DNA from: an uncultured Lachnospiraceae bacterium
Lineage (GTDB): Bacteria > Bacillota > Clostridia > Lachnospirales > Lachnospiraceae
Length of the DNA: 64,000 nucleotides
Reading direction: 5' to 3'
Assembly (NCBI GenBank): GCA_902779395.1
Contig: CACZBK010000009.1
Location: 62,001 to 126,000 of the forward strand
The translations under genes were made by a program, and so were the position numbers. Position 1 is the stretch's first letter. Each line of letters opens with the position of its first letter. Positions 7,614-35,364 of the stretch are shown piece after piece. Below the pieces are notes generated by a model. That model searched no databases. It had not been told where the DNA came from and worked only from the letters and a program-made list of their open reading frames with translations.

Positions 7614-8034
7614 AATCGACTTCCTCCTTTCTTCCCTTATTTCTCTCCGGCTCCGTTGCCAGGTTATACATGATGATCTCCATGATCTCATCATTGGCCT
7701 GTGCGTATCTGTGGAGTGCGGCATAGTAGTTGTCCGTCTTATACGGCCTCTCCTTTGGCCTTACGAATGTCGCTTCGATAAAATGTCCCAGTATCACTTC
7801 CAGATGCTGTCCGTTCTTTTCATAAAGCGCCAGGAAGAACAATGGCATCATGATCACCATCATCCCTATGGCTGCCGTACTCGTTGCCGATACGGACTTT
7901 ATCAGAAAGAACGACGGCACCCCGAGGAGCGCCGCCACAGAAAAACAGATCAGCTGTCTTTTTGTTAAGTTGAACATCACCTTACTCTTTACCTTCGTAA
8001 GGTCACGGGGCACCGATATATATGATGCTGCCAT
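7561..8034 (-). CDS. prgI: PrgI-family membrane protein of the transfer channel
   Basis: 157 residues starting MAASYISVPRDLTKVKSKVM, the conserved PrgI opening, followed by two membrane helices (QLICFSVAALLGVPSFFLI and TAAIGMMVIMMPLFFLALY) and a soluble C-terminus with a RPKERPYKTDN motif. PrgI (VirB3-like) proteins are inner components of Gram-positive type IV secretion, usually encoded just before virB4. The C-terminal 17 codons overlap the virB4 start in another frame, which implies coupled translation. Confidence 0.88.
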   Translation of the reverse strand: MAASYISVPRDLTKVKSKVMFNLTKRQLICFSVAALLGVPSFFLIKSVSATSTAAIGMMVIMMPLFFLALYEKNGQHLEVILGHFIEATFVRPKERPYKTDNYYAALHRYAQANDEIMEIIMYNLATEPERNKGRKEEVDFDKYFQEKKKNGLLHPC

Positions 8035-8058
8035 AACTGTTTTTTCCTTTCTTTTTCT

Positions 8059-9301: not shown

Positions 9302-9374
9302 CCTGGTTATCCTCCTTCTTAATGTTTAAGTCTCTATCCGGGTCTCGCAGCTTTATCAGAGTTACAAGTTTCAT
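9291..9374 (-). CDS. 27-residue leader ORF before the Maff2 frame
   Basis: A short ORF starting at an ATG and reading MKLVTLIKLRDPDRDLNIKK then EDNQDRS and a TAA. It stops 2 codons after the GAT at 9300-9302. If the 89 bp between this GAT and the GAT at 9211-9213 were absent or skipped, the frame would run straight into the Maff2 core (EDNQ-D-FGFNNYGFSAVEVLQ), giving one 98-residue protein. Its own Shine-Dalgarno is weak (GAAAG). It may be the real amino terminus of Maff2, cut off by an insertion, or an unrelated leader peptide. Confidence 0.4.
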   Translation of the reverse strand: MKLVTLIKLRDPDRDLNIKKEDNQDRS

Positions 9375-9383
9375 AATCTTTCA

Positions 9384-9523
9384 GCTCATGCTATAATCTG
9401 CATGAGCCTCAGGGCTTGCCTGCATCCGGTGCTCATAGTTTGCCGACCATCTGCACCGGGTGCTCTTTAGACATAAGCTCTTATGAATTCCATATGCGGT
9501 TTTTATATCCTGATATGATCAGG
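9384..9523 (-). other. Hairpin-rich region between virD4 and maff2 (candidate structured RNA)
   Basis: This 140-bp stretch has no gene but several perfect stems: CCTGA/TCAGG (9509-9523), CATAAG/CTTATG (9472-9485), CCGGTGC/GCACCGG (9426-9432 with 9453-9459), and GCTCATGC/GCATGAGC (9384-9391 with 9400-9407). Three copies of GGTGCTC occur at 9428, 9459 and 9522. Being inside the transfer operon it should be transcribed with virD4. It may be an RNA element controlling the membrane genes downstream, or hold the nicking region; no known riboswitch class is recognised. Confidence 0.45.
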
Positions 9524-9537
9524 TGCTCTTATCCTGT

Positions 9538-11307
9538 TCATGTTCCCTCCTTTCCCATCTCTATCACTTCATATTGATCATCCGGCTTAAGTTTAAGCTT
9601 ATGATCCAGGTACTTACCCACATCGAACCAGTTCCTCTTATCGGCATCTGCCGTAAGATGGTAATTCGGATGCTGCGTCAGATCATACTTATCTGATAAA
9701 AACGGCCTTACGCCGCGGACCTGCACTATGCACTTACCGCCATCCATGACGGCAAGTTCATCGATGCTCATAAGATCATGTCCCAGGCGCTGGTAGTTAA
9801 GATTATAGCTCTGGCTTGTCCCCCTGGTCTCTCCCGTATTGTACATATCTATCGTCTCTTTACCAAGAGTGGCGTTGAGATCCTTAAGGGTAGTCTGCTC
9901 AGAGCCGCCAAGAAATATCTGACTGTCACAGTTTCCTATGATCGTATCAGCGTTATCCTTGTACAGCGCCTTTAACTGTGACTTCGCCTGCAGTACAAGC
10001 GCTGCAGATATCTCACGGCTTCGTATCGTTGCCATCAGCTTTTCCAGGTTAGGTATCTGCCCGATATTTGCCGCCTCATCTATAAGACAGCGCACATGCA
10101 CCGGAAGTCTGCCACCATAAAAATCATCCGCTTTTTCACACAATAGGTTGAACAGCTGCGTATACACCATACTTATCAGGAAGTTAAAGGTTGCATCTGT
10201 ATCCGACATTATCAGGAACAATGCCGTTTTCTTATCGCCAAGTGTATCAAGCTCCAGCTCGTCGTATGCCGTGATCTCTCTGAGCTCTTTTATATCAAAC
10301 GGAGCCAGTCTTGCACCGCAGCTAACAAGTATGCTTTTACTGGTCTTGCCCGCCGCTAGCTTAAATTTGACATACTGGCGCACAGCGAAATGATCGGGAT
10401 CCTTTTCAGCCAGCTCATCAAACATAAGATCAACGGCATTTTTGAACTCCTCGTCATCTTCCCTCACTTCCATCGCATTGATCATCTCAAGCAATGTAGA
10501 AAAGTTCTGCTCTTCCACCGGTGCTTCATAATGGATATATCCGATCAGGGCAGAATACAGCAGCCTCTCTGCTTTCTCCCAGAACTCGTCCCCGCTCTTT
10601 CCATCACCTTTCGTATTTGCAATCAGTGTGGTGACAAGTTTCAGGATATCCTTTTCATCATGTACATATGCGAACGGGTTGTAGTGCATGCTCTTCTTAA
10701 AATTGATCGTATTAAAGATCTTCAGTCTGTAATCATTCTTTAAAAGTGCTGCCGCAGTCTCATTCACAAGTGTACCTTTCGGATCAGTAACAACGATGCT
10801 GGTCGCCATCTGCAGGATGTTCGGTTTTATAAAAAAACGCGTCTTACCTGATCCGCTTCCTCCGACTACCAGCACGTTCTTGTTCCTGGCATACTTAGGA
10901 TTGTCCGGCCTGCTGTTCATCGTGATACGTTCTGTCTGTGACAATATCACATTATTCTTAAAGACAGGATCGATGAACGGTTCTATATCAGCATGCGTTC
11001 CCCATCTTGCTGATCCGTACTCCATGTTATGGCGGAACTTCTTTGCGTTCTTGCTCTTGATATATACCGCAAGCCTCAATACAGCTCCTATCAGGCCCCC
11101 TATAAAAAGATCCGCAGGATGAAAGCTGGGCAGGGGATCCGCAAACGCCGCGCCAAAACATCCGTCCAGGATAACATGCTGCACCTTTTCAGAAACGTTG
11201 CTGCCTGCAGCTATACGGAATGCCTCCCCGATATTGGTTGCTACAAGTCCCACGATAACATAAGGGATGTTAAGTATAAGGAGCTTCTTAAGTTTCTTCC
11301 TTTTCAT
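9538..11307 (-). CDS. virD4: VirD4/TraG-type conjugative coupling protein
   Basis: 589 residues. The coupling ATPase that links the relaxase-DNA complex to the channel. Two N-terminal membrane segments (LLILNIPYVIVGLVATNIG and LFIGGLIGAVLRLAVYI) precede the motor domain with Walker A (VLVVGGSGSGKTRFFIKPN, about residues 146-164) and Walker B-like CLIDEAANIGQIPNLEKL. TIRSREISAALVLQAKSQLK is the usual motif after it. It overlaps the pcfB stop by 4 bp. It ends at 9538, followed by the hairpin-rich region before maff2. Family assignment is secure. Confidence 0.95.
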   Translation of the reverse strand: MKRKKLKKLLILNIPYVIVGLVATNIGEAFRIAAGSNVSEKVQHVILDGCFGAAFADPLPSFHPADLFIGGLIGAVLRLAVYIKSKNAKKFRHNMEYGSARWGTHADIEPFIDPVFKNNVILSQTERITMNSRPDNPKYARNKNVLVVGGSGSGKTRFFIKPNILQMATSIVVTDPKGTLVNETAAALLKNDYRLKIFNTINFKKSMHYNPFAYVHDEKDILKLVTTLIANTKGDGKSGDEFWEKAERLLYSALIGYIHYEAPVEEQNFSTLLEMINAMEVREDDEEFKNAVDLMFDELAEKDPDHFAVRQYVKFKLAAGKTSKSILVSCGARLAPFDIKELREITAYDELELDTLGDKKTALFLIMSDTDATFNFLISMVYTQLFNLLCEKADDFYGGRLPVHVRCLIDEAANIGQIPNLEKLMATIRSREISAALVLQAKSQLKALYKDNADTIIGNCDSQIFLGGSEQTTLKDLNATLGKETIDMYNTGETRGTSQSYNLNYQRLGHDLMSIDELAVMDGGKCIVQVRGVRPFLSDKYDLTQHPNYHLTADADKRNWFDVGKYLDHKLKLKPDDQYEVIEMGKEGT

Positions 11308-11801
11308 CTCTCACGCTCCTTTTTCTTCTCCTTATCCCTGTGGATAAAGGATGCAGCTTTGATCTTGAACTCCTTAAGCTTCATAAGAACGCTGGGCTTC
11401 TCCATTGAGTTTTCGTTTTTCTTCAGTTTAGCCGCTTTTTCTTTCATGACCATGCTTATCGCATCCGCATCCTTTGCCTTAAAGAAAACAACGTACTTAG
11501 GCGGATCTTCCGACTTATCCTTTACTATGGCATAATCCACTCCATACTTCTTCGCAGCCTGGTTGAACTCACGTATACCTTCATCACCGATATCCATCTT
11601 TGATACGCCTTCGCCTTTTCCTATAAGCTGCTTGACCGTCTGCATTCCTTTTACGGTCTTTTCACCGGAGAGTTCTTTTATGCTGAGCTTTCTTTTGATA
11701 TGATCCTCGTAAGCCTTAAGCGCCCGCCATAATACTTTTGCAGTAACTACCGTGGTCTTTACAGCGAAATGCACTGTCTTATTTTCAACCTCTTCCTGCA
11801 T
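11304..11801 (-). CDS. pcfB: PcfB-family protein (DUF3801)
   Basis: 165 residues, starting MQEEVENKTVHFAVKTTVVTA, followed by an amphipathic helix LWRALKAYEDHIKRK and a basic C-terminal tail (HRDKEKKKERER). PcfB proteins accompany VirD4-type coupling proteins in Gram-positive conjugative plasmids and ICEs and are required for transfer in pCF10. The stop overlaps the virD4 start (ATGA type), and AAGGAGATGATCGC precedes its ATG. Assignment rests on the N-terminal motif, the size and the position. Confidence 0.85.
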   Translation of the reverse strand: MQEEVENKTVHFAVKTTVVTAKVLWRALKAYEDHIKRKLSIKELSGEKTVKGMQTVKQLIGKGEGVSKMDIGDEGIREFNQAAKKYGVDYAIVKDKSEDPPKYVVFFKAKDADAISMVMKEKAAKLKKNENSMEKPSVLMKLKEFKIKAASFIHRDKEKKKERER

Positions 11802-22562: not shown

Positions 22563-23555
22563 TTATGCCCCCAGAGTAGCAGCCATAACAGCCTTTATTG
22601 TATGCATGCGGTTCTCAGCCTCCTGAAATACCTTCGACTGAGGACCTTCGAATACCTCATCCGTAACTTCCATATCGATGATCCCGAACTGCGCGCCCTT
22701 TTCCTTAGCGGTCTCGGTCTTCAGATCATGGAATGCAGGCAGGCAGTGCAGGAAGATAGCGCTGTCTTTAGCACAGCTCATAAGTTCCTTAGTCACCTTA
22801 TAAGGTGAAAGCTCCCTGATCCTCTCTTCCCATACTTCATCCGGCTCTCCCATGGACACCCACACATCGGTATATATGACATCGGCATCCTTTGCCGCTT
22901 CCTTTGCATCCTCGGTAAGAGTAATGCTTCCTCCGCTCTCCTTTGCCCACGCCTCACAGGTTGCTACCAGCGCAGGATCGGGGAAATACTTCTTCGGTGC
23001 TGCAGCTGCAAAATGCATCCCCATCTTGCTGCACAATAGCATGAGGGAATTGCCGGTATTATAGCGGGCATCACCCATGTATGCCAGCTTGCGTCCCTTA
23101 TGGTCGCCAAACACTTCACGGATGGTAAGCAGATCGGCCAGCATCTGGGTAGGATGATACTCATTGGTAAGCCCGTTCCATACAGGCACTTTTGAATAAC
23201 GTGCCAGTTCTTCCACGATCTCCTGACCATAGCCACGGTATTCTATACCGTCAAACATTGAGGAAAGAACACGTGCGGTATCCGCAATGCTCTCCTTCTT
23301 GCCTATCTGTGAGCTTTTAGGATCCAGATAAGTGCAGCCCATGCCCAGATCGCGTGCAGCCACTTCAAAAGAGCAGCGCGTACGGGTACTGGTCTTTTCA
23401 AATATAAGTGCTACATTCCTGCCTCTCATAGAGTCTACCGGAACGTGTTCTTTTTTCTTTCTTTTAAGTTCAACAGCCAGATCGATAAGATAGCTTATCT
23501 CCTCTGCCGTAAAATCCTTTAATGTCAGAAAATCCCTGCCTTTAAGATCGACCAT
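22563..23555 (-). CDS. argF: Ornithine carbamoyltransferase
   Basis: 330 residues. Makes citrulline from ornithine and carbamoyl phosphate. The carbamoyl-phosphate loop is [20 protein letters not shown], followed by [26 protein letters not shown] and the ornithine/Cys motif [10 protein letters not shown]. Length is standard. It has its own promoter (23591-23620) and GGGAGG before the ATG, and leads into birA. It may serve arginine synthesis or the reverse direction of the deiminase pathway; neighbours do not tell. Confidence 0.95.
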
Positions 23556-23590
23556 GATGTATACCTCCCTTTTTGGAAAAAACTGTTTCT

Positions 23591-23620
23591 ATGATACACT
23601 ATCCTGCCCGCATTTGTAAA
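23591..23620 (-). promoter_or_regulatory. Promoter of argF
   Basis: On the minus strand TTTACA (23615-23620) and TATCAT (23591-23596) are separated by 18 bp, about 35 bp before the argF ATG. It stands directly after the terminator of the upstream operon. Confidence 0.6.
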
Positions 23621-23623
23621 CAC

Positions 23624-23648
23624 AAAAAAGCCCCGGTCAGCCGGCTGC
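23624..23648 (-). terminator. Terminator of the six-gene operon
   Basis: On the minus strand AGCCGG-CTGA-CC...GGCT folds as a short GC hairpin followed by TTTTTTG, 35 to 60 bp after the stop of the last GNAT-like gene. Confidence 0.55.
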
Positions 23649-23682
23649 GTCAGGCCTCAATGCACTGCAGGGATAACAAATG

Positions 23683-24561
23683 TCATTTCACATTTTTCAG
23701 ATAGAAATACCCCCTTCGGGTTATATATGGCATGGCATCGGGAAAAAGCCTGGATATCAGCTGTGTACCGCGGTTATCATGAACTGCTATACGTACTATG
23801 GTATCTTCGGGATATCTCTCTACGGTGGCTTTCAGTGAACCTGCGACCATATCACGTATCCCGGCAGCTCCGGCATTACCGGGAGCCCTGAGCATAGCAG
23901 GGCTGAGAGAACCGTCTGCATTACGCCTTACCAGATAAAAGCCGGCAGGACGGTTTCCTTCAATAAGCGCCATGCTTGCATCAGGCTCATAATCATCTAT
24001 ATAAGGTGTAAGTTCATAATCGAAAAAAGCTTCATCCTTAACCAGCGATTCAAAGAAACGGTTAAACTCTCTGGGGCTTATCTGTTTAAGCGGCACAACA
24101 TTTTTACTTACCGGCTTCTTTAAAAATGCCAGATCACGTATCTCCTTAAGAGTTATTTCAGTAATAAAATTCTCCGAAAGTGCAAAATGGAAGCCGTAAT
24201 CCTCAAGAACATTACATAAAAGATTATATTCCTCATCAAACGGAACATCACAGCGAATGGCTTCAACATCTGTCTGCTCCAGTATCTTGATAAGTTCAGA
24301 AAAAAGATATGTTCCCACATAACTTCTTCTGGCTTCTTCCGCCACAAAAATATAACGCAACTCTGCCAAAGGATGGCTTTTCCCCTCATCATCCGCCTCG
24401 GCATCTGTTCTGAATATCAAAACCCCATCCGGCAATACATCCGCAGACTCTGTATAGCCTATACCAAAGCAGTCCGGGTCGTTCGCTACCATAAGGAGCT
24501 CTCTTTCAGGTACCAGTGCAGCAAAATTCTCTTTATTTTCTACAGTTACTTCAACAAGCAT
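23683..24561 (-). CDS. Two-domain GNAT-like protein (copy 1)
   Basis: 292 residues, last gene of the six-gene operon. The first half reads like a GNAT acetyltransferase: LAELRYIFVAEEARRSYVGTYLFSELI, where the R-x-x-x-x-G/A loop would hold acetyl-CoA, though the usual QxxGxG is degenerate. A bridge LKEIRDLAFLKKPVSKNVVPL joins to a second half with another GNAT-like fold (DASMALIEGNRPAGFYLVRR). The bridge closely resembles that of the 284-residue protein at 30694-31548, so they are paralogs. No substrate can be inferred. The ATG is 23 bp after the lipase-like gene. Confidence 0.7.
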   Translation of the reverse strand: MLVEVTVENKENFAALVPERELLMVANDPDCFGIGYTESADVLPDGVLIFRTDAEADDEGKSHPLAELRYIFVAEEARRSYVGTYLFSELIKILEQTDVEAIRCDVPFDEEYNLLCNVLEDYGFHFALSENFITEITLKEIRDLAFLKKPVSKNVVPLKQISPREFNRFFESLVKDEAFFDYELTPYIDDYEPDASMALIEGNRPAGFYLVRRNADGSLSPAMLRAPGNAGAAGIRDMVAGSLKATVERYPEDTIVRIAVHDNRGTQLISRLFPDAMPYITRRGYFYLKNVK

Positions 24562-24584
24562 CCCCCGTTCTCCTCCTTATCATT

Positions 24585-26255
24585 CTATGAAAACTGATTA
24601 TTCTTTATCCTGCTGAGTTCCGCTCTGAACTGTGAAAGTATGTCAGAAACCTTATCCATCCTTTCCTTTCCGCTTGGAGTATCCGGATTTTTTTTCAGCA
24701 TATATATCTTACAGGAAACGATGGCATTAACATAAACAGCTTCCTTTTCTTCTTTACTAAGATCAGCGTTCACACGGGCGGCCTGTACTTCTCTTATACC
24801 GTCTTTCACAGCTTTCATCTCATCACTGTCTCTGCCAGCCCAGCTGTTATCCAGCAGACTTTCCATAACCCCGTTAACCCTGACTTTTTCCTCAGCATAC
24901 TCAGTATCTGTTTCAGTCTCATCTACATACTCATTATCAATAAACCAGTTTTTAAGCATGGTATCAATAACATTCGCACGGGCAAGCTCGGATTTGTTAC
25001 CTGCCCGCACCGTTCTGTGTATCTGCCTTGCCTGGGCATACGAACGCATCCTCACCAATATTCCGTTTTCATCCTGCATGAAAACACCTTTGGGAAGCTC
25101 CGCCAGACCGGATCCGCGATAAGCTTCGCCTGTCTTAGAATCAAAATACGCCATCTTGTGAACCTTTATTTCACCATTTGCATCCTTCTGCGAAGCATCC
25201 GCACTATCCATACGGACACTGTGCTTTTCATTGCCCAGAATGATACGTGCCTGTCCTCTTACCTCCTGAGGAGTGAACTGCAATACATTATGTTCGGTAT
25301 ACATGGAACAGATCGTAGTCGCATTCACCTGATCGGAAAACTCACGCAGATCTACCTTATCCCCTGTAAAATTATCCGCCCCGGGAACAGGATCGAGCAG
25401 GAGCATATTGATCTTTATCCTATCCTTAAATTGAGGATAAGAACCCTCGATCCATTGCATCAGATCTTTTATTCCCAGAGAAACAGCAACTCCTCCCCTG
25501 CTATGTCCCTGGATATTAATATTCAGCATTGGCGGCGGATTTGCCCCACTCCAGCCGGAATCGGTAAAAGCTTTTTTCAGATAATCTGCCCCCAGATGAA
25601 ATACATAGTTCCTTATATCACTGACAGTAAAATCTCCCGCATCCAGACCATGAGGACCGGATAAATTATAGCGTTCAAGCTTTTTTCCGTCATCAAGTGT
25701 TCTTTCTTTTTTAAAGATACCTTTTTTAAAACGCCCTGCTATCTTATCACCAAAAACTTTACGAAACAGATCTGAATCAGGCGCCTTTCCCTTACCCTTA
25801 AAACCTTTATGCTGGCTTCTGAAATAGGTAAATCCCGATCCGGCACAATCTATCTTCAGAACACGTTCACCGTTTGCGGTAAGCTTGGTCCCCAGAGCAT
25901 GATGAAGCGGCACCTTACGCTCTGCTTCAACTGTTTTTCCGGTTATAGCATCATACTTGTCAAAGACATCCTGGCTTCGATATGATTTGAACACATCGCG
26001 GATCGTATCCCGGATACTTTTCAGTCCGTATTTGCGCTCATGTTCCGTAAGCATGTTTTCCGGGGCATTAGGATCATATTCAGGCACAGTATAGCTTTCC
26101 TGTTTTCGCGTCTTTTCCCTTAGATCTGTATTTTTATCGCTATAATATTCCTCAGTTGATTTTTCTATCTCTTTTGTTAAGTCTTTGGACACATCATTAA
26201 ACAGAAATGTTCTTTGTGCTTTAGTCTCTTGCCGGACCAGATCTTCCAATGACAT
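24585..26255 (-). CDS. Lipase-like alpha/beta hydrolase with GHSRG motif
   Basis: 556 residues. The nucleophile elbow INIQGHSRGGVAVSLG has Ser at about residue 252 (GxSxG), preceded by a hydrophobic strand. MLLLDPVPGADN about 36 residues later offers the acidic residue (about 288), and His 322 or 345 (YTEH or EKHS) could complete a triad. The GHSRG box followed by a DPV strand recalls the phospholipase effectors of the DUF2235/Tle type, but this is by resemblance. The first 100 residues are charged and probably helical with no signal peptide; the last 150 are helical. The ATG at 26255 has GGAGG upstream. It follows the kinase-like gene by 21 bp. Confidence 0.65.
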   Translation of the reverse strand: MSLEDLVRQETKAQRTFLFNDVSKDLTKEIEKSTEEYYSDKNTDLREKTRKQESYTVPEYDPNAPENMLTEHERKYGLKSIRDTIRDVFKSYRSQDVFDKYDAITGKTVEAERKVPLHHALGTKLTANGERVLKIDCAGSGFTYFRSQHKGFKGKGKAPDSDLFRKVFGDKIAGRFKKGIFKKERTLDDGKKLERYNLSGPHGLDAGDFTVSDIRNYVFHLGADYLKKAFTDSGWSGANPPPMLNINIQGHSRGGVAVSLGIKDLMQWIEGSYPQFKDRIKINMLLLDPVPGADNFTGDKVDLREFSDQVNATTICSMYTEHNVLQFTPQEVRGQARIILGNEKHSVRMDSADASQKDANGEIKVHKMAYFDSKTGEAYRGSGLAELPKGVFMQDENGILVRMRSYAQARQIHRTVRAGNKSELARANVIDTMLKNWFIDNEYVDETETDTEYAEEKVRVNGVMESLLDNSWAGRDSDEMKAVKDGIREVQAARVNADLSKEEKEAVYVNAIVSCKIYMLKKNPDTPSGKERMDKVSDILSQFRAELSRIKNNQFS

Positions 26256-26276
26256 AATCACACCTCCATGCTAAGC

Positions 26277-29200
26277 TTATAAAAGAAAATATTTTTTATT
26301 TAAATGATCACTTGCTTTTGCACTCATAAATCTGGAAATAACATCAGTCTCATCTGATACATCCGTAAATTTAGGATCCTCAGCCATTTTTTCCCGCAGG
26401 GTCTTCTTTACCCGCGCTATACGTGTATCCAATGCTCTAAGCTCATCATCTGTGAGAATATCGGAAAGCTGATGCGCAAGTACTGCGGGGTCCAGATCAA
26501 GGACACGCTGAACAAAATCCGGGGGAAGCGCCACCAGCTTATCTTTACCGATCATATCTGAATAATTATCTAGATTAAGATTACCAAAAGCCATATCGTT
26601 ATCAATACCGGTAATCCCGGTAACAGTATAGACTCCGCCATTCTCAGTATACTGACCGAAGAAATTATCACTTTTCCTGTCACCTTGAAGGCAGATAGCA
26701 TCAAACACCTGCAACATAGAAATCTGCAGAAGAGCCTTTGCGGTATATTCTACTCTTCCTTGTGTTTTCTTTGCCTTTTCATGGATATCCCCCATTTCCT
26801 TCCCCTGTGCCGCATCCATTGCAATTCCGGGTATAAGTTCTCCCCCCTTTTCAAGCACTGCCAGATCAGACTTTACGACAAGTTCTGAAATTCCCAATAC
26901 CTCTGCCGCTCGTGAAGTGGCTACATTTCGCATTGCAGCAGACTCATCTGTTCCTATACCAAAAATACTCATTATATTCCCCTGATTAAAAGTCAATATA
27001 CTGGGTTCCAGCATACGGATCACCCTGAGTTTATGCTCATCTTCAGTTTTATCATGAGTGCTTCTATATGCTCCAGTAACCTCATGCAGTCCAAGATTAT
27101 TATTCAAAAAATTATATATAGAATCTGCAAGATCCTGTGTAAGCTTCTTGCCACTCATAATATAGGCGCCCAAACCTACTGTTAGTAACTGAAAAAAATT
27201 ATTCGAACCCATGCGCAGCCGGCCATCATCATCATACAAAGGAAGGCTTTGTCCCGAAGGCAGGTTCTTCGCTCTTTCTCTTTCCTGCTCCCTGCGCTTT
27301 TCAAGTGCGGCAAGGATCGCACTGTACATCTTATGATCTTCCTCATCCATATTCTCCGGAACGTGACGTTTCATCACCTCAAACATATCTTTTCTATCAT
27401 ACAGCTCCTTTTCCGGTTTATAAAATACAGTTTTTCCTTCATGATCCAGCGGATATACATCGGACGTACCGGCTCCTTTATTTACCATCGTTGCCGTGGG
27501 TTTAAGGAATACAGTACGCATTTCTTTTAAAACATCGCCGAAACTGCCGCCTCCATGTGCCCTGAAGTGTTCCCACGCACGTGTAGAAAAAAAGATACGC
27601 TCTCGTTCTGCTCTTTCGCGGATATCATGAACCATCTTCTTACGTTCTTTTCCCAAAGTGGTCCGGGGATTACGTTTTTCTTCATATGTACGGCTGCTTT
27701 CGATCAGATCATCATATTCCTGCAATATCTCTCCCAAAACCGTCTTAAAGGATGCCTCATCCTCCGGGATCGCTGTTTTTAACCTTCTGTCCAGCTCCGT
27801 ATAACATGCTTTCACATCTTTCATCAGAGAGGATGTCGTCATAGGGTTTGCCGCAACAGAAAATCTCTGTTCTTTTAACACAGCCTTCGCCCTTTCGGAA
27901 TCATTCATAGCTTCCTGCTGCATTTTTTTATCTTTAAGTCTTTCTATAGTCTCGCTGAGTTTCACCGGTTGCTGCTGTTTTTGCTGCGGCAGAGCTTCAA
28001 CCTCTGCATCCCATTTCACTTCCGGACTCTCCTGCTCAAGTTTATCCAGGGTATGTAGTAAAGACAGATTACCATCAGATACTAATGCAGTTATTTCGCC
28101 GGAAATAACCTCCATCTGAAACTCCGTTGCTGCGGACGGAGCCCCATGACTAAAACACTTGCTCCAACATACTCCCGAGATGTATTCAGCAATCCTTACA
28201 ATCTCACGATCCTGCTCATTCTCGGGATCGTATAGTTCCGGAACTTTCTGCATCATTCTTGTAAAACTAACCATGATCTGTGCAGAACACAGATCATCCC
28301 GTATTTCTTCCTTGCGTTTCATGATCTCATTGAAACCGGCATTCTCATATAAATCCGGATATTTTTTTTCAAGATAAAATGCATGCTGGGCTAACAGTCT
28401 TTTATACTCCTTAAGGCCTGCAATATTCCTGCTCTTTACTGCAGCCACATCCTGTGCTGTCGCATTCCCGGCCGGGACTTCATAAATATTTTCAAGCATC
28501 GTTATTATCTGCTGCTGGGTCATGGATCTGATGCCCTTAAACCCTTCCAGAGCACGAGGGGTAGTGCGGCATATGCCCTCGCCCATATCTATACCTGTTC
28601 CCGCTATCACAGGATGCGTGGTGGTTTTCAGCTTTTGGTACAGATCCGGATGAGACTGGGCAAGGCCCTGAAAAAAAGCAAAATGAGGATCAGTCTGATC
28701 TGTATATGGATATGCTTTTTTAAACTCTGAATTGCTCCCTCCAATACGGGCGAACCCATCTATATACTTTTGGCTATTTGCGGAAACTTCCTCCGAATCA
28801 GTAACAACGCAACCGCCTGCGGGATCACGCCACTTAACCCCATTCTGATTATGAGTAGCTAAAGCTGTCTGTTTCCACAAAAGACGTGTGAGGCGCATCT
28901 GGGCCGGCGTGGCATCAGGATCATACTGTCTGGAAATCTCGGAATTGAAATGACTTCTGTAATACGGGTCCGTTGCGATCATTTTCGTGATCCGGTAATA
29001 AGATACCACCTGCATGGCATTTTGCTTTTGCGTCAGATAAGAATCTTTCAGTTTTCTGGGCAGCGAATCAAAAAATGCCTTGTTTTTAACTTCAATAAGA
29101 GCCATCCCCTCCAGACGTGAATTCAACGCCTCCAAAGAATCCGCGCCGCGGGCTATAGCATCCTCATCCGAAAGATCATATGCGGAAAGATCCAGACGAA

Positions 29201-29819
29201 GAAAATCTTCCAGGATCTGCGTTACAGCCTTTTCCTTTTGGGCTGATGTTCCGGCATAATCCTGCAGCAGTGCCTGATCATGTGCCAGAGTTCCGTTCAT
29301 TACTTTAGTAAGAGCTATGGCATCTTCTTCCTTAAGATCCAGTGAAAGCCCCGCTGATGCAGCTTCCAATAAAGCTATCTGCCTGTCTGTCTCTCCTGCC
29401 TTTACCGATTCGAACAATCTGGCAGTCTGTTCCTTTTTGTACAAAACATTTCGCGGATCCAATGCTTTTTTTGCACGTTTATTCGCAGAAATCTTCTGCT
29501 CCTTATACTTAGATCCGAATTCATTCTGCATGGATGCATCCATCAGCGTTCTCTTCGGAGCCGTAACATTCGCGAATCTGCTTACTGCTATCTGCTCTAA
29601 GTGGGAAAAACGGCTTGCCGTGGCCTGTTGAGGCCCCGTTGCCGATACGCTTACTGCCGCTGCAGATGCAGCCGTGATCACTCCGGGCACCGGTAACGGC
29701 GGCAATGGCGGAATCGCCGCATTCTTAGACTTTGTAACATCTGCCGTTACCGGTGCGGATACTTCTTTCTTAGTTTCCACAGCAGCCGGTGCTGCTCCAT
29801 CTTCTCCCTGTTTACCCAT
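26277..29819 (-). CDS. Large protein with PI3K-like kinase domain
   Basis: 1180 residues. An Ala/Pro-rich N-terminus (AAIPPLPPLPVPGV, about residues 34-47) leads into a long helical region (80-700). The C-terminal about 400 residues look like a PI3K/HipA-type kinase: VFYKPEKEL with a candidate ATP-binding Lys at 801, ATSRAAEVLGISELVVKSD, catalytic loop QGDRKSDNFFGQY (Asp 1047, Asn 1052) and metal motif GIDNDMAFG (Asp 1073/1075). PI3- and PI4-kinases carry GDRHxxN and a DFG-like motif at these places. Substrate may be lipid, protein or small molecule. No signal peptide or membrane helix is seen. AAGGAGG precedes the ATG, and the lipase-like gene follows directly. Confidence 0.65.
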   Translation of the reverse strand: MGKQGEDGAAPAAVETKKEVSAPVTADVTKSKNAAIPPLPPLPVPGVITAASAAAVSVSATGPQQATASRFSHLEQIAVSRFANVTAPKRTLMDASMQNEFGSKYKEQKISANKRAKKALDPRNVLYKKEQTARLFESVKAGETDRQIALLEAASAGLSLDLKEEDAIALTKVMNGTLAHDQALLQDYAGTSAQKEKAVTQILEDFLRLDLSAYDLSDEDAIARGADSLEALNSRLEGMALIEVKNKAFFDSLPRKLKDSYLTQKQNAMQVVSYYRITKMIATDPYYRSHFNSEISRQYDPDATPAQMRLTRLLWKQTALATHNQNGVKWRDPAGGCVVTDSEEVSANSQKYIDGFARIGGSNSEFKKAYPYTDQTDPHFAFFQGLAQSHPDLYQKLKTTTHPVIAGTGIDMGEGICRTTPRALEGFKGIRSMTQQQIITMLENIYEVPAGNATAQDVAAVKSRNIAGLKEYKRLLAQHAFYLEKKYPDLYENAGFNEIMKRKEEIRDDLCSAQIMVSFTRMMQKVPELYDPENEQDREIVRIAEYISGVCWSKCFSHGAPSAATEFQMEVISGEITALVSDGNLSLLHTLDKLEQESPEVKWDAEVEALPQQKQQQPVKLSETIERLKDKKMQQEAMNDSERAKAVLKEQRFSVAANPMTTSSLMKDVKACYTELDRRLKTAIPEDEASFKTVLGEILQEYDDLIESSRTYEEKRNPRTTLGKERKKMVHDIRERAERERIFFSTRAWEHFRAHGGGSFGDVLKEMRTVFLKPTATMVNKGAGTSDVYPLDHEGKTVFYKPEKELYDRKDMFEVMKRHVPENMDEEDHKMYSAILAALEKRREQERERAKNLPSGQSLPLYDDDGRLRMGSNNFFQLLTVGLGAYIMSGKKLTQDLADSIYNFLNNNLGLHEVTGAYRSTHDKTEDEHKLRVIRMLEPSILTFNQGNIMSIFGIGTDESAAMRNVATSRAAEVLGISELVVKSDLAVLEKGGELIPGIAMDAAQGKEMGDIHEKAKKTQGRVEYTAKALLQISMLQVFDAICLQGDRKSDNFFGQYTENGGVYTVTGITGIDNDMAFGNLNLDNYSDMIGKDKLVALPPDFVQRVLDLDPAVLAHQLSDILTDDELRALDTRIARVKKTLREKMAEDPKFTDVSDETDVISRFMSAKASDHLNKKYFLL

Positions 29820-29833
29820 GATATAACCCCTCC

Positions 29834-30664
29834 TTAAAATTCATATACCTGTATAACAGATATTCCCGTCTGTACAAGTTTGTTTCCAGATATACTTTCT
29901 GCCAGCTTATTTATTTTATCATTAACAGCACAAAAACTGAGTTTTGCTTCCGGTTTAACCTTCCCCTCCGCTCCATCTATAGCTGCTTGCAGTAATTCCA
30001 GCAGTTTTGAAACATCCCCCTTCTCTTTCGTACTCAGATGCTCCAGCACCAGATCATCTCCCGAACGGGATATCAGGATCAGTCCTGTGATATTCTTTTT
30101 TTCATCGGCCTGTACGATCGAAAGCTCAGGATCATACATAGCTTTATCCCCTATAGGCAGAACTTCGCTTCCTTCCTGCTCAGCAGTTTTATAGTATTCT
30201 GATACGTAATATGTCCAGCGTCCTTCATTCACCTCGGAAAGTTTTTCCGTCCTTACGGCCTTCTTCCCGCGGTACCGGTCATCTATGTCTCCATAGCAGA
30301 AACTGAACACCGGACGTGATTCCTCCGTAAGTTCCCGCATCTGCTGCTCTTCCAAAAAATCATGCAGAACCGCGGTATCGTCATTCAGAGTATAGATAGC
30401 CTGCATACTGTCTGCTCCGGCATCACGGAGTATATCTTTTGCTGCCCCCATAAGCAACGTACCTGCACCGCGCTGTCTGTATTCCTCCCTTACACAGATC
30501 CACATCAGCAGGAAAACATCTCCCTCTGCACGAAAAGCAGCAAGCCCGACAGGATCATCATCCTCCTGCACCGCAATAAACAGATCAGACCCTTTAACTA
30601 CCTGCTCAGGCAAACCTTCCGTATAATCCGCCCTGCGGTCTTCCCCCACTACAAATGCCTTCAT
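29834..30664 (-). CDS. Two-domain GNAT acetyltransferase (copy 2)
   Basis: 276 residues. The N-terminal half is a convincing GNAT domain: PVGLAAFRAEGDVFLLMWICVREEYRQRGAGTLLMGAAKDI, with the acetyl-CoA loop RQRGAG (Q/R-x-x-G-x-A/G), then AIYTLNDDTAVLHDFLEEQ. The second half repeats a weaker GNAT-like fold (YKTAEQEGSEV ... SIVQADEKKNITGLILISRSG). The bridge (GDIDDRYRGKKAVRTEKLSE) is placed like those of the other two copies. It is 14 bp upstream of the kinase-like gene, with AGGAGGAGG before its ATG. It is the copy most likely to be enzymatically active. Confidence 0.75.
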   Translation of the reverse strand: MKAFVVGEDRRADYTEGLPEQVVKGSDLFIAVQEDDDPVGLAAFRAEGDVFLLMWICVREEYRQRGAGTLLMGAAKDILRDAGADSMQAIYTLNDDTAVLHDFLEEQQMRELTEESRPVFSFCYGDIDDRYRGKKAVRTEKLSEVNEGRWTYYVSEYYKTAEQEGSEVLPIGDKAMYDPELSIVQADEKKNITGLILISRSGDDLVLEHLSTKEKGDVSKLLELLQAAIDGAEGKVKPEAKLSFCAVNDKINKLAESISGNKLVQTGISVIQVYEF

Positions 30665-30693
30665 CTCTTCCTCCTCCTTATATTATTATCTGC

Positions 30694-31548
30694 CTAAAGC
30701 CACAACACGCCCTCTATGAGCTCCCCGCGCTGCGCATCCGGAACCATATGCGTTACTATTTCAGCCGTTTTGTTTACAACGACCGGAACAAGTATCTTTT
30801 GCCCGGGTCCGTATTCATCCAAAAGCGCCATATAGGCATTTCCCAGTAATCCTGCAAGTGCCACAGGATCATCAACATAAGCACAGTCGATAACTATATA
30901 ATCTTTTTTCTCATACAAAAGAACTGCACCGTCAGGTTTTCCGCCCTTATGGCTTATAAAACTGACATCCTGAAGATAATCTGAGTATCCCGATACTAAA
31001 TTAAAAGGTACAGGACGGTCATCTGCCCGTATCAGACTTTCAAGACCTGACAGCAGCGTATCATCTGCCTCAGAAAGTTGTGTACATTTTATCCTTCCCG
31101 CAGCCTTTTTCAAAAAAGCAGCTTCCTTCACATCAGAAAGAGCAAACTCATAAATATTATTACCTGTAACTGCCGTTTCCATACCGGCCAGCCTTAATAC
31201 TCTTTTAAGTACCTGTACGTCCCTGACTTCCTGTATATGAACTTCGCAGAAAATCCCTTTCAAAGGATCCTTGATCCTTTCCTGTTCTGCGCGGAAGATA
31301 TAACGCAGAAGATCTGCCTTTGCCGACGGTGTGGAGTCTTCCTCCATAAAATATGTCCATACAAGTTCAATCCAGCCTGCAAAATGTCCGGTAACATATA
31401 TGACTTTAGTACGATCGACACCACCTACCGTATCCACGACCATACCGGCATATAAAGAATTCCCCCTTACCTGCAATATATAGTTATCGGGAATATATTC
31501 AGAATATTCGCTCAGATCTCTGGGATTGATCCGCTCACTGCTGAACAA
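30694..31548 (-). CDS. Two-domain GNAT-like protein (copy 3)
   Basis: 284 residues from a TTG start (31548) with AAAGGAG 8 bp upstream; the start overlaps the preceding gene by 14 bp. Its first half (VRGNSLYAGMVVDTVGGVDRTKVIYVTGHF ... LLRYIFRAEQERIKDPLKGIF) lacks an obvious acetyl-CoA loop. The bridge ALSDVKEAAFLKKAAGRIK clearly matches the bridge of the 292-residue copy. The second half includes ISHKGGKPDGAVLLYEKKDYI, again like a GNAT sheet. The protein may be a degenerate, non-catalytic partner of the other copies. Confidence 0.65.
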   Translation of the reverse strand: MFSSERINPRDLSEYSEYIPDNYILQVRGNSLYAGMVVDTVGGVDRTKVIYVTGHFAGWIELVWTYFMEEDSTPSAKADLLRYIFRAEQERIKDPLKGIFCEVHIQEVRDVQVLKRVLRLAGMETAVTGNNIYEFALSDVKEAAFLKKAAGRIKCTQLSEADDTLLSGLESLIRADDRPVPFNLVSGYSDYLQDVSFISHKGGKPDGAVLLYEKKDYIVIDCAYVDDPVALAGLLGNAYMALLDEYGPGQKILVPVVVNKTAEIVTHMVPDAQRGELIEGVLWL

Positions 31549-32998
31549 AACTGTTACTCCTTTCCATAACGATATCTCTGAGTACCTCTCTTACGATCTT
31601 TTCCTGTCCGGAATAGCTGATATACGGAAGTATACGGCGCAACGCCTCTGTAGTTTCCTCCACCGTGTTATACTGCCATTCATAAATGAACTCCAACGCC
31701 ATATACCCTACGCGGTTCATTACTTCCGACATTACCCATATCTCAAAAATATGCTCTCTCTCATCCTGAGGCCGCATAAAAAAGGCTTTTTCAGACGTCA
31801 ACTTATCCAGAGCCTGCATAAGACCATATGCTTTCGAAAGCACATCCGTCAGTTCATATGTATCCGTAGCAAGCGACAAAAGACTCTGGGCATCAAACTG
31901 TGACGGATGAGTATAAAGGTATTCCTTTAACTCTTCACCCGTACGGAAAATCTCCTCATCACCGTTAACATGAACATCCGCCTTTTCCACCGGTTCCACA
32001 AATCCGGATATGTCAGATAAACGTTTGCTTCCATCAATGATCCCGGGCCATTCCCCGTATTCTTTGAAAATCTTTTCAGCAATTATCTTATCAACAGGTT
32101 CCCATAAAAGAATCCATCTTAATCTGTAATATCCGGCTTCCTTGGCATAGAGTATTTCTCTTAAACGTTCATTAACCTCTACAGTATAGTCGGATATCGC
32201 TCTTATCAGCATCCTGTTCTTCCATTCCTGTTCCGGTCTTTCATAAAAAAGCTCTTTTGCACAGGATATTACCATATCACGTTCAGTCTTAAGCTTTCCT
32301 GCCTGGAAATCTGCCAGCCTGATCCTTTCCAGAATGACATCTGTATCTGTCTTTCTCAAAGCATACGCTATAGGCGCTCTGACGATCAGTTCCTCGCATT
32401 TCGGATCTTTGCGTATGTCACCACCCGTATATGCATGCTGTTCCCTGTCTCTTACAATACGCGCTATAAAACTCTGAACACCCTGCCGGTTCACCTCTTT
32501 GATCAGGTGTTCATATTCTGCACGGATCTCAAAGAAATCCTCTTCCGCCTGTTTTTTTAAAGCCCTGTTCTTAAAAGGCACTCCTTTCAGATCTGTTCCG
32601 CAGGCTGTAAAGAAAGTTTCAACCAGACGGTCTATCAATCCGCCCACCTTCTTTATCCCTTCAAGGTAGAGAGCATCTTCATTTAACTCATCATGTGCAC
32701 CGGTACTTTTAAGCGTTTTTATCTGTGCGGATACCTGCATCATACCGGCGACAGAACGTATAAAAGCCCTCTTTCCTGCTGCCGAAGGAGGTCTGTCTGC
32801 AAATTCATTCCCACTGAGGCTCGTAACCCCGGGTTTTTCTTTCTCATCCAAATAACGAAGTACGTCCAGAGCAGTATCGACGTTAAAGATATTTCCCCGC
32901 AATCCGCCTTTAGATTCTGCCGAATACACATAGCGACGGAACTTTCTCCAGAAACAGTCTCCCTTTTCGCGAGCACTTAAACTATCTATTTCTGACAT
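31535..32998 (-). CDS. Unrecognised helical protein, first gene of the six-gene operon
   Basis: 487 residues from the ATG at 32998 (MSEIDSLSAREKGDCFWRKF), which has AAGGTGGAG upstream; a GTG 12 bp before is less likely. The protein is charged and predominantly helical by composition, with many Leu/Glu/Lys/Arg heptad-like runs and no membrane segment or signal. Patches that might be useful for searching are FIRSVAGMMQVSAQIKTLK, KGVPFKNRALKKQAEEDFFE and LRWILLWEPVDKIIAEKIF. I do not recognise the family. As the promoter-proximal gene it may be a scaffold or chaperone for the lipase-like and kinase-like proteins. Confidence 0.65.
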   Translation of the reverse strand: MSEIDSLSAREKGDCFWRKFRRYVYSAESKGGLRGNIFNVDTALDVLRYLDEKEKPGVTSLSGNEFADRPPSAAGKRAFIRSVAGMMQVSAQIKTLKSTGAHDELNEDALYLEGIKKVGGLIDRLVETFFTACGTDLKGVPFKNRALKKQAEEDFFEIRAEYEHLIKEVNRQGVQSFIARIVRDREQHAYTGGDIRKDPKCEELIVRAPIAYALRKTDTDVILERIRLADFQAGKLKTERDMVISCAKELFYERPEQEWKNRMLIRAISDYTVEVNERLREILYAKEAGYYRLRWILLWEPVDKIIAEKIFKEYGEWPGIIDGSKRLSDISGFVEPVEKADVHVNGDEEIFRTGEELKEYLYTHPSQFDAQSLLSLATDTYELTDVLSKAYGLMQALDKLTSEKAFFMRPQDEREHIFEIWVMSEVMNRVGYMALEFIYEWQYNTVEETTEALRRILPYISYSGQEKIVREVLRDIVMERSNSFVQQ

Positions 32999-33042
32999 AC
33001 AATACTCCACCTTTGCCGATATTGTTTTGCTGTCGGGTATAT

Positions 33043-33054
33043 AGAGTTAACTCT
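33043..33054. promoter_or_regulatory. 12-bp palindrome upstream of the six-gene operon
   Basis: AGAGTTAACTCT is a perfect palindrome in AT-rich DNA (TATATA close on either side), 45 to 56 bp before the first ATG of the operon. It lies where a promoter must be and could be an operator; clear -35/-10 boxes are not certain. Confidence 0.4.
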
Positions 33055-33111
33055 TTATATAATAACACAAACAAAGGAAAACTGTCATCTGTTTTATTGT
33101 CCGTTGGTATA

Positions 33112-34566
33112 CTAACTCAGAAGCGTAAAATCGGCATAAGCCGGTATAGCCTTGGTGAATATAAAATAGAGGCAGAGCAGTATAAGAAGGACTGCGATGC
33201 CGTAAATAAGCGGGGTTTTTAATTTCTCATATTTCTTAAACTTCTCCGGCAGACTTATCCTGTCGTAGCCGCTGCAGATAAAGATAAACAGTGCCAGGGC
33301 GGACGGCAGTACATAGCGGCCCTGACGCTGGAAATCCATGGCATATGCATAAAACATCCAAAGACCGAAATTAAAGATGATACCGCAGATGAGCATAAGG
33401 CTGTAGGGAAGGCCTATACTGCCGGCTTTATCCGCAGCCGGCACAGACGATACATTTCCGGAAACCTTATCCGTTTTTCCTGCTTCCCGGCGACGGCATA
33501 CAGCTCCGGTCACATATGTGATGATAAGTGCCGCAAGGCCTGCCGCGAAAACAGCTGCAAACACCAGATAATACGGTTTCGTGGTATGCAGTATCGTGGC
33601 ACCGTAATCTGCCACAAAGGAAATGAACAGCCAGAAGAAAAGCCCCGGCGTAGCCAGAAACTCAAAGAATCCCACACCTTTATCCCGGGGCGCCGGCTCT
33701 ATCACAAGACCTACCCTTGCACGGTCTTTCAGCTGCTGCGCCTTTAAGCTGGCCAGCCCCAGGAAATCACCGTTGTTTAAGGCAGCAGAGCGTATGAACC
33801 ACCAGCCGGCCCCTATCAGGCAGATAAGCAGTATGAAACAGCCGTACTTCATCATATCCTTAAACTTAAGGCGGAGCTTTCCGTCTTTCTTTTCAACAAA
33901 AAGATAAATGAAATACAGCACACTGCCCGGAAATATGGCATAACAGTTGTAATATGAAAGCAGGCAGAACACCGCCCCGGCGGCAAAGCCCGCGCTGTTT
34001 TTAAAGCTTACCCCGTCCTGCCCCATAGCCAGCAGGAAGTAGCTCATTATCACTATGGACATGATGCCGCAGGCATCCAGATTAACATAGCTGAAGATGA
34101 ATATCATCTGCGGAAGGTACATGAACATCACCGGCAGCAGCTTAGCCGCAGGCCTGTCCTTAAACAGACGCTTAGCCAGCGCCCATACGAAAGATGCGCT
34201 CACCACTCCCATCAGGAGATTGACCATCCTGGCTGCAAATATATATCTGGTCTCAAGCTCCGTAAACAGGCTCGCAAACTTTATTGCCCAGCCCATGAAT
34301 ACATAGCTCAGTCCGGGCAGATAAGCATAAGAGCCGCCATAGCCGCTTATACCCACCTCATCTTCCCAGCCGAAAGGAAGACGTCCGTGTTCAAAGATAA
34401 AACGGGGGATAAGATACCTGTCCGCCTCATCGGGAGGACATAACATAGTATCCCAAAATATATAAGCCGGCTGGTGGACCACCAGCCGACTGCACAAAAA
34501 TACAAAACCGGATATGTAGAGCAGGAAAAATACCAGCTCTTTTATCTGCTTTTTCCTGTCGGTCAA
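33112..34566 (-). CDS. Membrane glycosyltransferase (GT-C, GT39/ArnT-like)
   Basis: 484 residues with 10 or more hydrophobic segments. The first external loop after helix 1 contains acidic residues (MLCPPDEADRYLIPRF), the hallmark position of the catalytic Asp/Glu in GT-C enzymes using lipid-linked sugars. Further segments include FIFSYVNLDACGIMSIVIMS and IFNFGLWMFYAYAMDFQRQG. It probably moves a sugar from a polyprenyl phosphate to a surface glycan or protein. It is the last gene of the pfkA-rRNA methyltransferase-proC transcript, starting 3 bp after the proC stop. Confidence 0.75.
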   Translation of the reverse strand: MTDRKKQIKELVFFLLYISGFVFLCSRLVVHQPAYIFWDTMLCPPDEADRYLIPRFIFEHGRLPFGWEDEVGISGYGGSYAYLPGLSYVFMGWAIKFASLFTELETRYIFAARMVNLLMGVVSASFVWALAKRLFKDRPAAKLLPVMFMYLPQMIFIFSYVNLDACGIMSIVIMSYFLLAMGQDGVSFKNSAGFAAGAVFCLLSYYNCYAIFPGSVLYFIYLFVEKKDGKLRLKFKDMMKYGCFILLICLIGAGWWFIRSAALNNGDFLGLASLKAQQLKDRARVGLVIEPAPRDKGVGFFEFLATPGLFFWLFISFVADYGATILHTTKPYYLVFAAVFAAGLAALIITYVTGAVCRRREAGKTDKVSGNVSSVPAADKAGSIGLPYSLMLICGIIFNFGLWMFYAYAMDFQRQGRYVLPSALALFIFICSGYDRISLPEKFKKYEKLKTPLIYGIAVLLILLCLYFIFTKAIPAYADFTLLS

Positions 34567-34569
34567 AGC

Positions 34570-35364
34570 TTACAGCTCCCGTGAGCGCTCTGCTGCGGCC
34601 TCCACCGCATCGATCACGGCCCCGCGGAATCCCTCCTGCTCCAGTACGCGCACGGCTGCGATGGTCGTGCCTGCAGGTGAGCATACCATGTCCTTAAGCT
34701 CTCCCGGGTGCTTGCCGGTATCCAGCATAAGCTTTGCACTGCCGTATACCGCCTGTGCCGCAAATTCATAGGCCTGCGCACGGGGCATGCCTTCTTCAAC
34801 AGCCGCATCAGCCATTGCTTCGATGAACATAAATACATAAGCGGGTGCCGAACCGCTCACACCCACAACCGCATCCATAAGATTCTCGGATACTACCGAT
34901 GCACGGCCGAACGCTCTTAAGATAGAAAGCGCCGTTTCCTTTTCTTCATCACTGACCAGCTCGTTGGGTGTGGCAGCTGTGATGGCTTCACCTACCAGTG
35001 CAGCGGTATTTGGCATGCAGCGAACGATCTTTCTGCTGCTGCCCAGCGCATCCTTAAGCCACGCCAGTGTCTTGCCTGCCATGATAGAGATGATCACCTG
35101 ATCGTCACGCAGCTTATCCTTAAATCCATCTATCGCAGCTGCAGCAAACTGCGGCTTAACAGCCAGGACCAGATAATCCGCGTTCTTTACCACCTCTGTA
35201 TTATCCGTTCCTGCGTTTATCTTAAACTCATCCGCACGCTTTTTTGCCATCCCGGCATTTACATCAGCTCCGTAAATATCGGCCGGTGCAACTATGCCTT
35301 TCTTTAACAGTCCGCCTATCATGGCTCCCGCCATATTTCCAAGTCCTATGAATCCAATCTTCAT
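34570..35364 (-). CDS. proC: Pyrroline-5-carboxylate reductase
   Basis: 264 residues. Last step of proline synthesis. The NAD(P)-binding start is MKIGFIGLGNMAGAMIGGLL; VKPQFAAAAIDGF and the dimer/substrate motif VSGSAPAYVFMFIEAMADA with EEGMPRAQAYEFAAQ follow. The C-terminus SPAGTTIAAVRVLEQEGFRG is also typical. Its ATG overlaps the stop of the upstream methyltransferase by 4 bp. Confidence 0.96.
   Translation of the reverse strand: MKIGFIGLGNMAGAMIGGLLKKGIVAPADIYGADVNAGMAKKRADEFKINAGTDNTEVVKNADYLVLAVKPQFAAAAIDGFKDKLRDDQVIISIMAGKTLAWLKDALGSSRKIVRCMPNTAALVGEAITAATPNELVSDEEKETALSILRAFGRASVVSENLMDAVVGVSGSAPAYVFMFIEAMADAAVEEGMPRAQAYEFAAQAVYGSAKLMLDTGKHPGELKDMVCSPAGTTIAAVRVLEQEGFRGAVIDAVEAAAERSREL

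Follow-up and report, generated by a model that had tools for sequence, protein, structure and literature searches.

Introduction

Extracellular contractile injection systems (eCISs), of which the Photorhabdus virulence cassette (PVC) and the antifeeding prophage (Afp) are the closest described counterparts of the system considered here, inject proteins that are said to be largely unknown (PMC11297309), and the finding of these payloads leans on closeness to the operon of the contractile injection system (CIS). In PVC, the payload is loaded by Pvc15, an AAA+ ATPase (PMC11495950). Here we describe a cassette of six genes, named A to F, which lies away from any CIS operon in a 64,000-nucleotide stretch of DNA (hereafter, the window) from an uncultured Lachnospiraceae bacterium.

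We consider it likely that the six genes encode payload for the cell's own, eCIS-like CIS, as an unlinked ("orphan") cassette composed of the pairs A+B, D+C and E+F. The payload reading is based on the presence of comparable pairs behind CIS operons, on their co-occurrence with one clade of CISs, and on the fact that the genome containing the window itself encodes a CIS, associated ATPases and at least 15 members of the partner family, which we name G. From these observations we infer delivery by the CIS and a role of G in it. The initial annotation of the locus had offered several readings. Its option of an effector set with modifying enzymes, and that of export by a non-Sec route, appear to be right, and we do not favour an independent intracellular pathway for lipid modification or small-molecule signalling. 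Its labels for the individual proteins remain useful, but the link with a CIS and the pairing of the large genes with tandem GNATs were missed.

Results

The six-gene cassette

In agreement with the initial annotation, six co-directional open reading frames (ORFs) are present on the minus strand; A and B overlap by 14 bp, and the remaining neighbours are 14-29 bp apart. All six starts are preceded by a purine-rich ribosome binding site, as read by eye. The genes are the following:

31535-32998, minus strand: A, 487 aa, helical; first gene of the operon and proposed cargo 1
30694-31548, minus strand: B, 284 aa, TTG start, overlapping A by 14 bp; tandem-GNAT family without the acetyl-CoA (AcCoA) motif; proposed partner of A
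29834-30664, minus strand: C, 276 aa; tandem GNAT with an intact AcCoA motif, RQRGAGT; partner of D
26277-29819, minus strand: D, 1180 aa, modular, with a PI4K-II/Fam20-like kinase domain
24585-26255, minus strand: E, 556 aa; GHSRG lipase/alpha-beta-hydrolase-like; proposed cargo 3
23683-24561, minus strand: F, 292 aa; tandem-GNAT family without the AcCoA motif; proposed partner of E

A large protein and its GNAT-like partner are the recurring unit

An iterated profile unites B, C and F in one GNAT-like family, G; the N-terminal helical module of D is referred to as Dn. Searches covered 250 genomes of the same family, including the genome that contains the window (G000). Relatives of A are present in two of these genomes, those of E in three and those of D in 15. 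The idea that the six genes stay together did not hold, as relatives of A outside G000 were found only in G180 and those of E only in G002 and G150, one of the two being a partial match; by these single-protein searches, neither the six-gene set nor A, D and E together were seen in another of the 250 genomes. The set was rejected as a conserved unit, and in L092, a sheep rumen locus encoding the closest relative of D (63% core identity), only G and D are found together. In terms of the refutation test proposed in the initial annotation, the complete set was found in no other of the 250 genomes, yet pairs recur widely and do not belong to housekeeping families.

The recurring unit is a large protein accompanied by a tandem-GNAT partner of family G. 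The relative of A in G180 (23% identity) precedes B-like and C-like genes and the gene for a 2668-aa protein, so that the A-B order is kept. When neighbours were counted as immediate same-strand genes within 200 bp, a G neighbour was present for 25 of 31 Dn genes versus 29 of the 358 remaining genes of these loci; three duplicate records (G041, G180) were removed from this count, in which the near-identical pairs L103/L104 and L108/L109 remain. The Dn genes without a G neighbour are those of L095 (first copy), L096, L098, L100 (a contig fragment), L105 and L129 (second copy). G can be located on either side of the cargo gene and is more often upstream. A loose pattern for the AcCoA motif is matched by 49 of 77 G proteins. 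A collection-wide scan with a four-row Dn profile, from which the records closest to the window's genome may be missing, yielded 19 loci, all labelled Lachnospiraceae or Butyrivibrio; a rumen is named in four of the 19 titles, and the RUG and RUI names denote rumen collections.

The modules found in Dn- or G-paired proteins include ABC1/APH kinase-like, calpain-like protease, Ntox11 and lipase-like ones, and some are unrecognised. In G041, a 2413-aa protein with a C-terminal Ntox11 domain (L034:10368-17609) is encoded between two G genes, and a CIS sheath gene is located about 24 kb downstream. L095:9728-13402, located 1.4 kb past conserved CIS genes, encodes a Dn protein whose C-terminal domain is a calpain-family protease (PF00648, 5.8e-17).

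Proposed payload pairs lie behind CIS operons in related genomes

AAA+ ATPases with a winged-helix domain (WHD) are among the genes around Dn-G pairs, and in view of the role of Pvc15 in PVC, a phage-type sheath was therefore searched for in the 250 genomes. G000 encodes a CIS on contig C17, with Pfam matches to a sheath, a gp19 tube, Pvc16_N, gp25, base_V and two CIS_tube proteins. Another contig of this genome, C38, starts with homologs of genes located behind the CIS in G041 and G180, and probably continues C17. Next on C38 are three AAA+ genes, with a D-like kinase gene between two of them, and a G-Dn pair:

L028:1741-4158, 6436-8805 and 9350-11539 (G000, C38): three AAA+ ATPase paralogs, probably a CIS-linked cluster

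The WHD exceeded the cut-off on C38 in one protein scan and in two genome matches, and it was sub-threshold in the 805-aa gene (20.8 bits). Compared with the single Pvc15 of PVC, the three paralogs are possibly cargo-specific loaders.

It is paralogous pairs in G180, L095 and G208 that lie close to a CIS operon. G180 has a CIS operon with homologs of the sheath, tube and Pvc16_N genes, and a payload array starts 0.3 kb past the last conserved gene of this operon. The array has the order Dn, G, Dn, G, AAA+, the gene for a 1677-aa protein, AAA+, Dn, G and Dn, after which more G genes are found. In L095 (Lachnospiraceae B55_55_CC_H), small genes separate the homologs of CIS baseplate genes from an array of Dn, AAA+, Dn, G and Dn, which begins 1.4 kb past the last conserved CIS gene. 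In G208, baseplate homologs and two small genes precede a gene for a 2586-aa protein and G.

Two other genes were observed in these surroundings. A SpoIIE-type phosphatase gene, which perhaps regulates the system, recurs near payload clusters (L028:12902-14686, L034 from 18194, L036:15320-16987, L099:4319-6100 and L123:4025-5617); the one of L028 matches PF07228 at 7.6e-46, and the others were recognised by sequence comparison or profile. In G180, a gene resembling the C-terminal domain of phosphatidylglycerol lysyltransferase (PF09924) follows the last G of the array (L036:11376-12332).

G and Dn co-occur with one clade of CISs

A phage-type sheath was found in 49 of the 250 genomes, in 25 of which the frame has at least 560 aa ("long sheath"); one of the 25, G143, is under the curated cut-off and an extreme outlier in the sheath tree. 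The C-terminal profile of G matched eight genomes, seven of which have a long sheath. The eighth, G023, is a marginal match (E 8e-5) in a genome that is 60% complete and has no sheath match. The hypergeometric probability of the overlap is 3e-7 against the 25 long-sheath genomes and 5e-5 against all 49 sheath genomes. In a tree of the 25 long sheaths, the seven G genomes with a long sheath all belong to a single eight-member clade (support of the split 0.84, and 0.998 without G208), the remaining member being G233, which has no G match. The Dn profile matched five genomes; the four strong ones all have a long sheath, and the fifth, G079, is marginal (E 6e-5) and has no sheath match.

The genome of the window is itself rich in such genes: G was matched at least 15 times, on 12 contigs, which is a lower bound because 15 of 28 first-look candidates were scored. 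In the stretches of G000 compared, 12 of 19 G genes have a neighbour of at least 700 aa versus 44 of 284 other genes, although some of these neighbours are not cargo (AAA+ genes, a sensor kinase and a 707-aa protein). Among the G neighbours are proteins of 2111 and 1975 aa with an ABC1 kinase-like domain over the cut-off, and one of 2653 aa in which APH was matched below the threshold.

Hydrophilic N-termini of Dn proteins

The first 35 residues of Dn proteins have a mean hydropathy of -1.16 (n=31) versus -0.55 in control proteins without a hydrophobic segment (n=266; p 3e-9), and Gln and Asn together make up 23% versus 9% of the N-termini. For A and E, the N-terminal hydropathy is -0.88 in both cases. 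That no protein of the cassette has a clear signal peptide, as stated in the initial annotation, agrees with the absence of any 19-residue stretch with a mean hydropathy above 1.6 in A to F; the highest value is 1.54 (D, position 42).

Protein D and its kinase family

D begins with an N-terminus of very low model confidence (residues 1-106), and the all-helical Dn module spans about 107-328 (about 90-320 as the part shared with other proteins); a helical middle part is followed by a kinase domain at about 890-1160. The earlier label of PI3K-like kinase can be refined to PI4K-II/Fam20/CtkA-like. The predicted structure has a kinase C-lobe fold that resembles PI4K-II/Fam20 in a structural comparison with VIA-align; Foldseek alone gave no match for the model under E 0.001. 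The catalytic motifs, DRKSDN (DRHxxN-like) and IDND (DFG-like), are as in the family; across all 17 aligned kinase sequences, no variation is seen at the Asp, Arg and Asn of the loop or at the two Asp of DND. GAGTSDVY and FYKPE, candidates for the glycine-rich loop and the lysine of the N-lobe, also align with the family, in a part of the model (767-810) that has low confidence. Compared with PDB profiles, the Dn module gave no significant match (best E 0.06).

Dn and the kinase are separable, as some proteins (783-2241 aa) have Dn but give no match with the kinase profile, and others have the kinase part of D but no Dn match. In a tree of 27 kinase domains, from which domains under 150 residues were dropped and in which the D-like kinase of C38 is not included, a single split (support 0.87/0.82) separates 12 sequences of CIS-bearing genomes or Dn-G loci from 15 of sheath-less genomes; three of the 12 are collection loci for which the CIS status of the genome was not checked. 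Every Dn- or G-linked kinase in the tree belongs to the group of 12. Contig C50 of G002 carries a run of genes for proteins of 1358-1922 aa (L040:496-15962 and L061:143-11307), one with a D-type kinase, and no sheath, G or WHD was matched in this genome; the run may be regarded as a related large-protein array in another context.

Proteins A, B, C, E and F

Nothing in Pfam exceeded the cut-off in A, B, D or E, and NCBIfam gave nothing above its cut-off either. The designation of three proteins as GNAT-like paralogs is largely borne out: C matches PF00583 (GNAT) with 42.3 bits against a cut-off of 20.7, F falls just under it with 20.3 bits, and B has no Pfam match and joins the family by the iterated profile only. 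C has a tandem GNAT fold in its predicted structure. In B and F, the AcCoA-binding motif RxxGxG/A was not found in residues 41-150, and their membership of the family is by profile only.

In E, the GHSRG motif is present and, together with DPVPG and a His, is common to E and its 946-aa relative in G002, but E has no sequence match in Pfam or the PDB. From its sequence motifs, E is a lipase/alpha-beta-hydrolase-like candidate.

No protein of the six had a PADLOC match at E 0.01, and a defence system was rejected on this ground. A plasmid-borne origin was likewise rejected, as a tblastn search of 72,556 plasmid records with D gave no match.

Flanking DNA

The cassette is an ordinary operon between housekeeping genes, with a G+C content of 44.3% versus 47.4% for the window. 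Two features lie upstream of it:

33043-33054, no strand: 12-bp palindrome AGAGTTAACTCT, just upstream of the operon
33059-33088, minus strand: promoter-like site ATGACA, 18 nt, TATTAT, with TG ahead of the second hexamer; consensus match only, 10/12

The palindrome had been noticed before and was confirmed; it is unique in the window, with 0.10 chance matches expected at one mismatch or fewer, and adjoins the promoter-like site (33088-33059). As an exact copy is present in only one of 136 loci compared, and that locus covers the same place, a role as shared operator of the compared cassettes was rejected. Promoter-like sites are not enriched in the region, with 17 found versus 18.3 expected from shuffles. 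The hairpin terminator described downstream of F is weak: a G+C-rich stretch followed by six U is indeed present, but the strand 23682-23612 folds no better than shuffles (z +1.09), and a terminator scan of the region listed none at this position.

In G004, a genome of the same genus, four ORFs without a match in the window lie between the homologs of window ORFs 34570-35364 and 22563-23555, which we take to be proC and ornithine carbamoyltransferase; the window instead has a 484-aa ORF and the six-gene cassette there. By this sequence comparison, the region 22563-35364 is a variable site with respect to G004. G004, with an estimated completeness of 100%, has no match for D, Dn, G, sheath or WHD.

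Discussion

Several observations weigh against the view that the cassette is a payload set of the CIS. It is located on contig C9 and not beside the CIS, the only sheath match being on C17. No G was detected in 18 of the 25 long-sheath genomes, and the WHD of the ATPases was found in 14 of the 250 genomes but in only four of the eight G genomes (G000, G041, G180 and G208); AAA+ homologs were detected by profile in G080 and G129 as well. DUF4157, the usual marker of eCIS cargo, which is common but not universal, was not matched in the six proteins or in the related large proteins scanned. A and E have no Dn, and their status as cargo rests on gene pairing and a hydrophilic N-terminus. The N-terminal hydropathy of D (-0.54) equals the control mean. 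In favour of the payload view, residues 1-50 of D are probably disordered according to the model, with a mean pLDDT (predicted local distance difference test) of about 31, where values below 40 have been used for eCIS signal peptides (PMC11495950, section 3.1), although this low value may partly reflect a thin alignment. Finally, the distances of G and Dn are uncorrelated in 21 hand-chosen pairs, ambiguous ones being left out (rho 0.11, p 0.22); G-Dn co-evolution was rejected as not significant, and co-evolution by direct contact is therefore not supported.

Other observations would fit an alternative in which the proteins are effectors of one or more other non-Sec routes, the kinase and lipase being general secreted or intracellular effectors of Lachnospiraceae and the CIS link a correlation of lineage. 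Of the 15 genomes with D-type kinases, nine, which are 80-99% complete, have no long sheath, and both other genomes with relatives of E, G002 and G150, have no sheath match. In G002, the gene for the E relative (L053) is 17 bp from a gene for a 1166-aa protein, itself 11 bp from a D-type kinase gene; because kinase and lipase run together in this sheath-less genome, which also has the runs of genes for 1358-1922-aa proteins and no G or WHD match, they are not tied to a CIS. However, the kinase tree separates the 12 sequences of the CIS/Dn-G group, which includes all Dn- and G-linked kinases, from the 15 sheath-less ones, and pairs are physically located inside CIS clusters in several genomes, so that we regard this explanation as quite unlikely. 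We also judge it unlikely that G is an immunity or silencing protein and that the large proteins are toxins acetylated or capped in the producer. The tight adjacency of G and the cargo gene, the AcCoA pattern in 49 of 77 G proteins, and the Ntox11 and protease-like cargo would all be expected then, but immunity genes usually follow the toxin gene, whereas G is present on either side and more often upstream; many G proteins do not have the AcCoA motif, and a single family G serves very different cargo, while immunity proteins are usually as varied as their toxins. A cytosolic cassette for lipid modification, signalling or defence, unrelated to delivery, is very improbable. The lack of a Sec signal, the enzyme-like folds and the ordinary operon between housekeeping genes would be compatible with it, but the absence of PADLOC matches, the clustering of relatives with CIS genes, and a hydrophilic, Gln/Asn-rich N-terminus common to otherwise different Dn proteins argue against it.

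If the cassette is a payload set of the CIS, the cargo would be made in the cytosol, where it would be held or modified by its own GNAT partner. An AAA+ ATPase would then thread it into the CIS tube via the disordered N-terminus, perhaps with the Dn module, and the cargo would be injected into a target cell. There, D may act as an atypical kinase on a phosphoinositide or a protein, and E may have lipase or esterase activity. As several relatives are from rumen or gut samples, ciliates, fungi and rival bacteria would all be possible targets. G is most likely a cargo-specific partner that would modify (acylate) or chaperone the cargo. The loss of the AcCoA motif in some G proteins favours binding, and its retention in about two thirds favours catalysis; G might be catalytic where the motif is kept, as in C, and only bind where it is lost, as in B and F. 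A more far-reaching version, which we put forward tentatively as a speculative possibility, is that each cargo is licensed by its own tandem GNAT, through acylation or capping, before it is taken up by a cargo-specific AAA+ loader, that the Lachnospiraceae CIS clade, which has several members from rumen and gut, possesses a large and dispersed arsenal of exchangeable cassettes, and that their kinases and lipases rewire the membranes of rumen eukaryotes. To our knowledge, no enzyme-licensed loading of cargo is known in contractile injection, and this would, if true, be the first case.

Comparison with known systems

The atypical kinases of the PI4K type II, Fam20, CtkA and HipA families share at most 19% identity with D. 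D differs from them in having Lys in place of the catalytic-loop His (DRKSDN) and in being fused to Dn and a long low-confidence tail, and no Pfam family reaches its cut-off. Identity with known tandem GNAT enzymes (the clavulanate tandem GNAT 2wpx, MAB_4324, mycothiol synthase and N-myristoyltransferase) is about 10%; the cassette GNATs, unlike these enzymes, are encoded beside a cargo gene and in the case of B and F do not have the AcCoA motif. HlyC-type RTX toxin-activating acyltransferases are GNAT-fold enzymes encoded beside the large secreted toxin that they acylate, and a likeness of G to them may be entertained as an idea only. C is a tandem-domain protein whereas HlyC-type enzymes have a single domain, and Pfam reported no RTX repeat family in the cargo scanned. 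RTX-type acyltransferases are not among the 50 structural matches listed for C, which is not evidence against them.

The closest likeness is to eCIS payloads with a Pvc15-type loader, as in PVC and Afp, whose published payload pattern (PMC11495950, PMC11297309, PMC8213781) is shared: in the related genomes, large and diverse enzymes, many with hydrophilic N-termini, follow the CIS core operon in the neighbourhood of AAA+ genes. Unlike those payloads, the set in the window lies apart from the operon, a tandem GNAT is encoded next to each cargo, and Dn is common to many; in contrast to PVC and Afp, DUF4157 was not found in the proteins scanned and several AAA+ paralogs are present. Neither PMC8213781 nor PMC11297309 uses the words GNAT or acetyltransferase in its main text, and no description of a GNAT-partnered, dispersed layout of CIS payloads was found in the open-licence literature on contractile injection systems that was searched. 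With respect to this literature, the cassette would be a variant of CIS payloads with a partner family and a genomic layout not found described. The tandem-GNAT partner and the shared helical module mark likely payload genes anywhere in a genome, by which unlinked cargo can be found, and they point to a large set of cargo, rich in kinase-like enzymes, in Lachnospiraceae.

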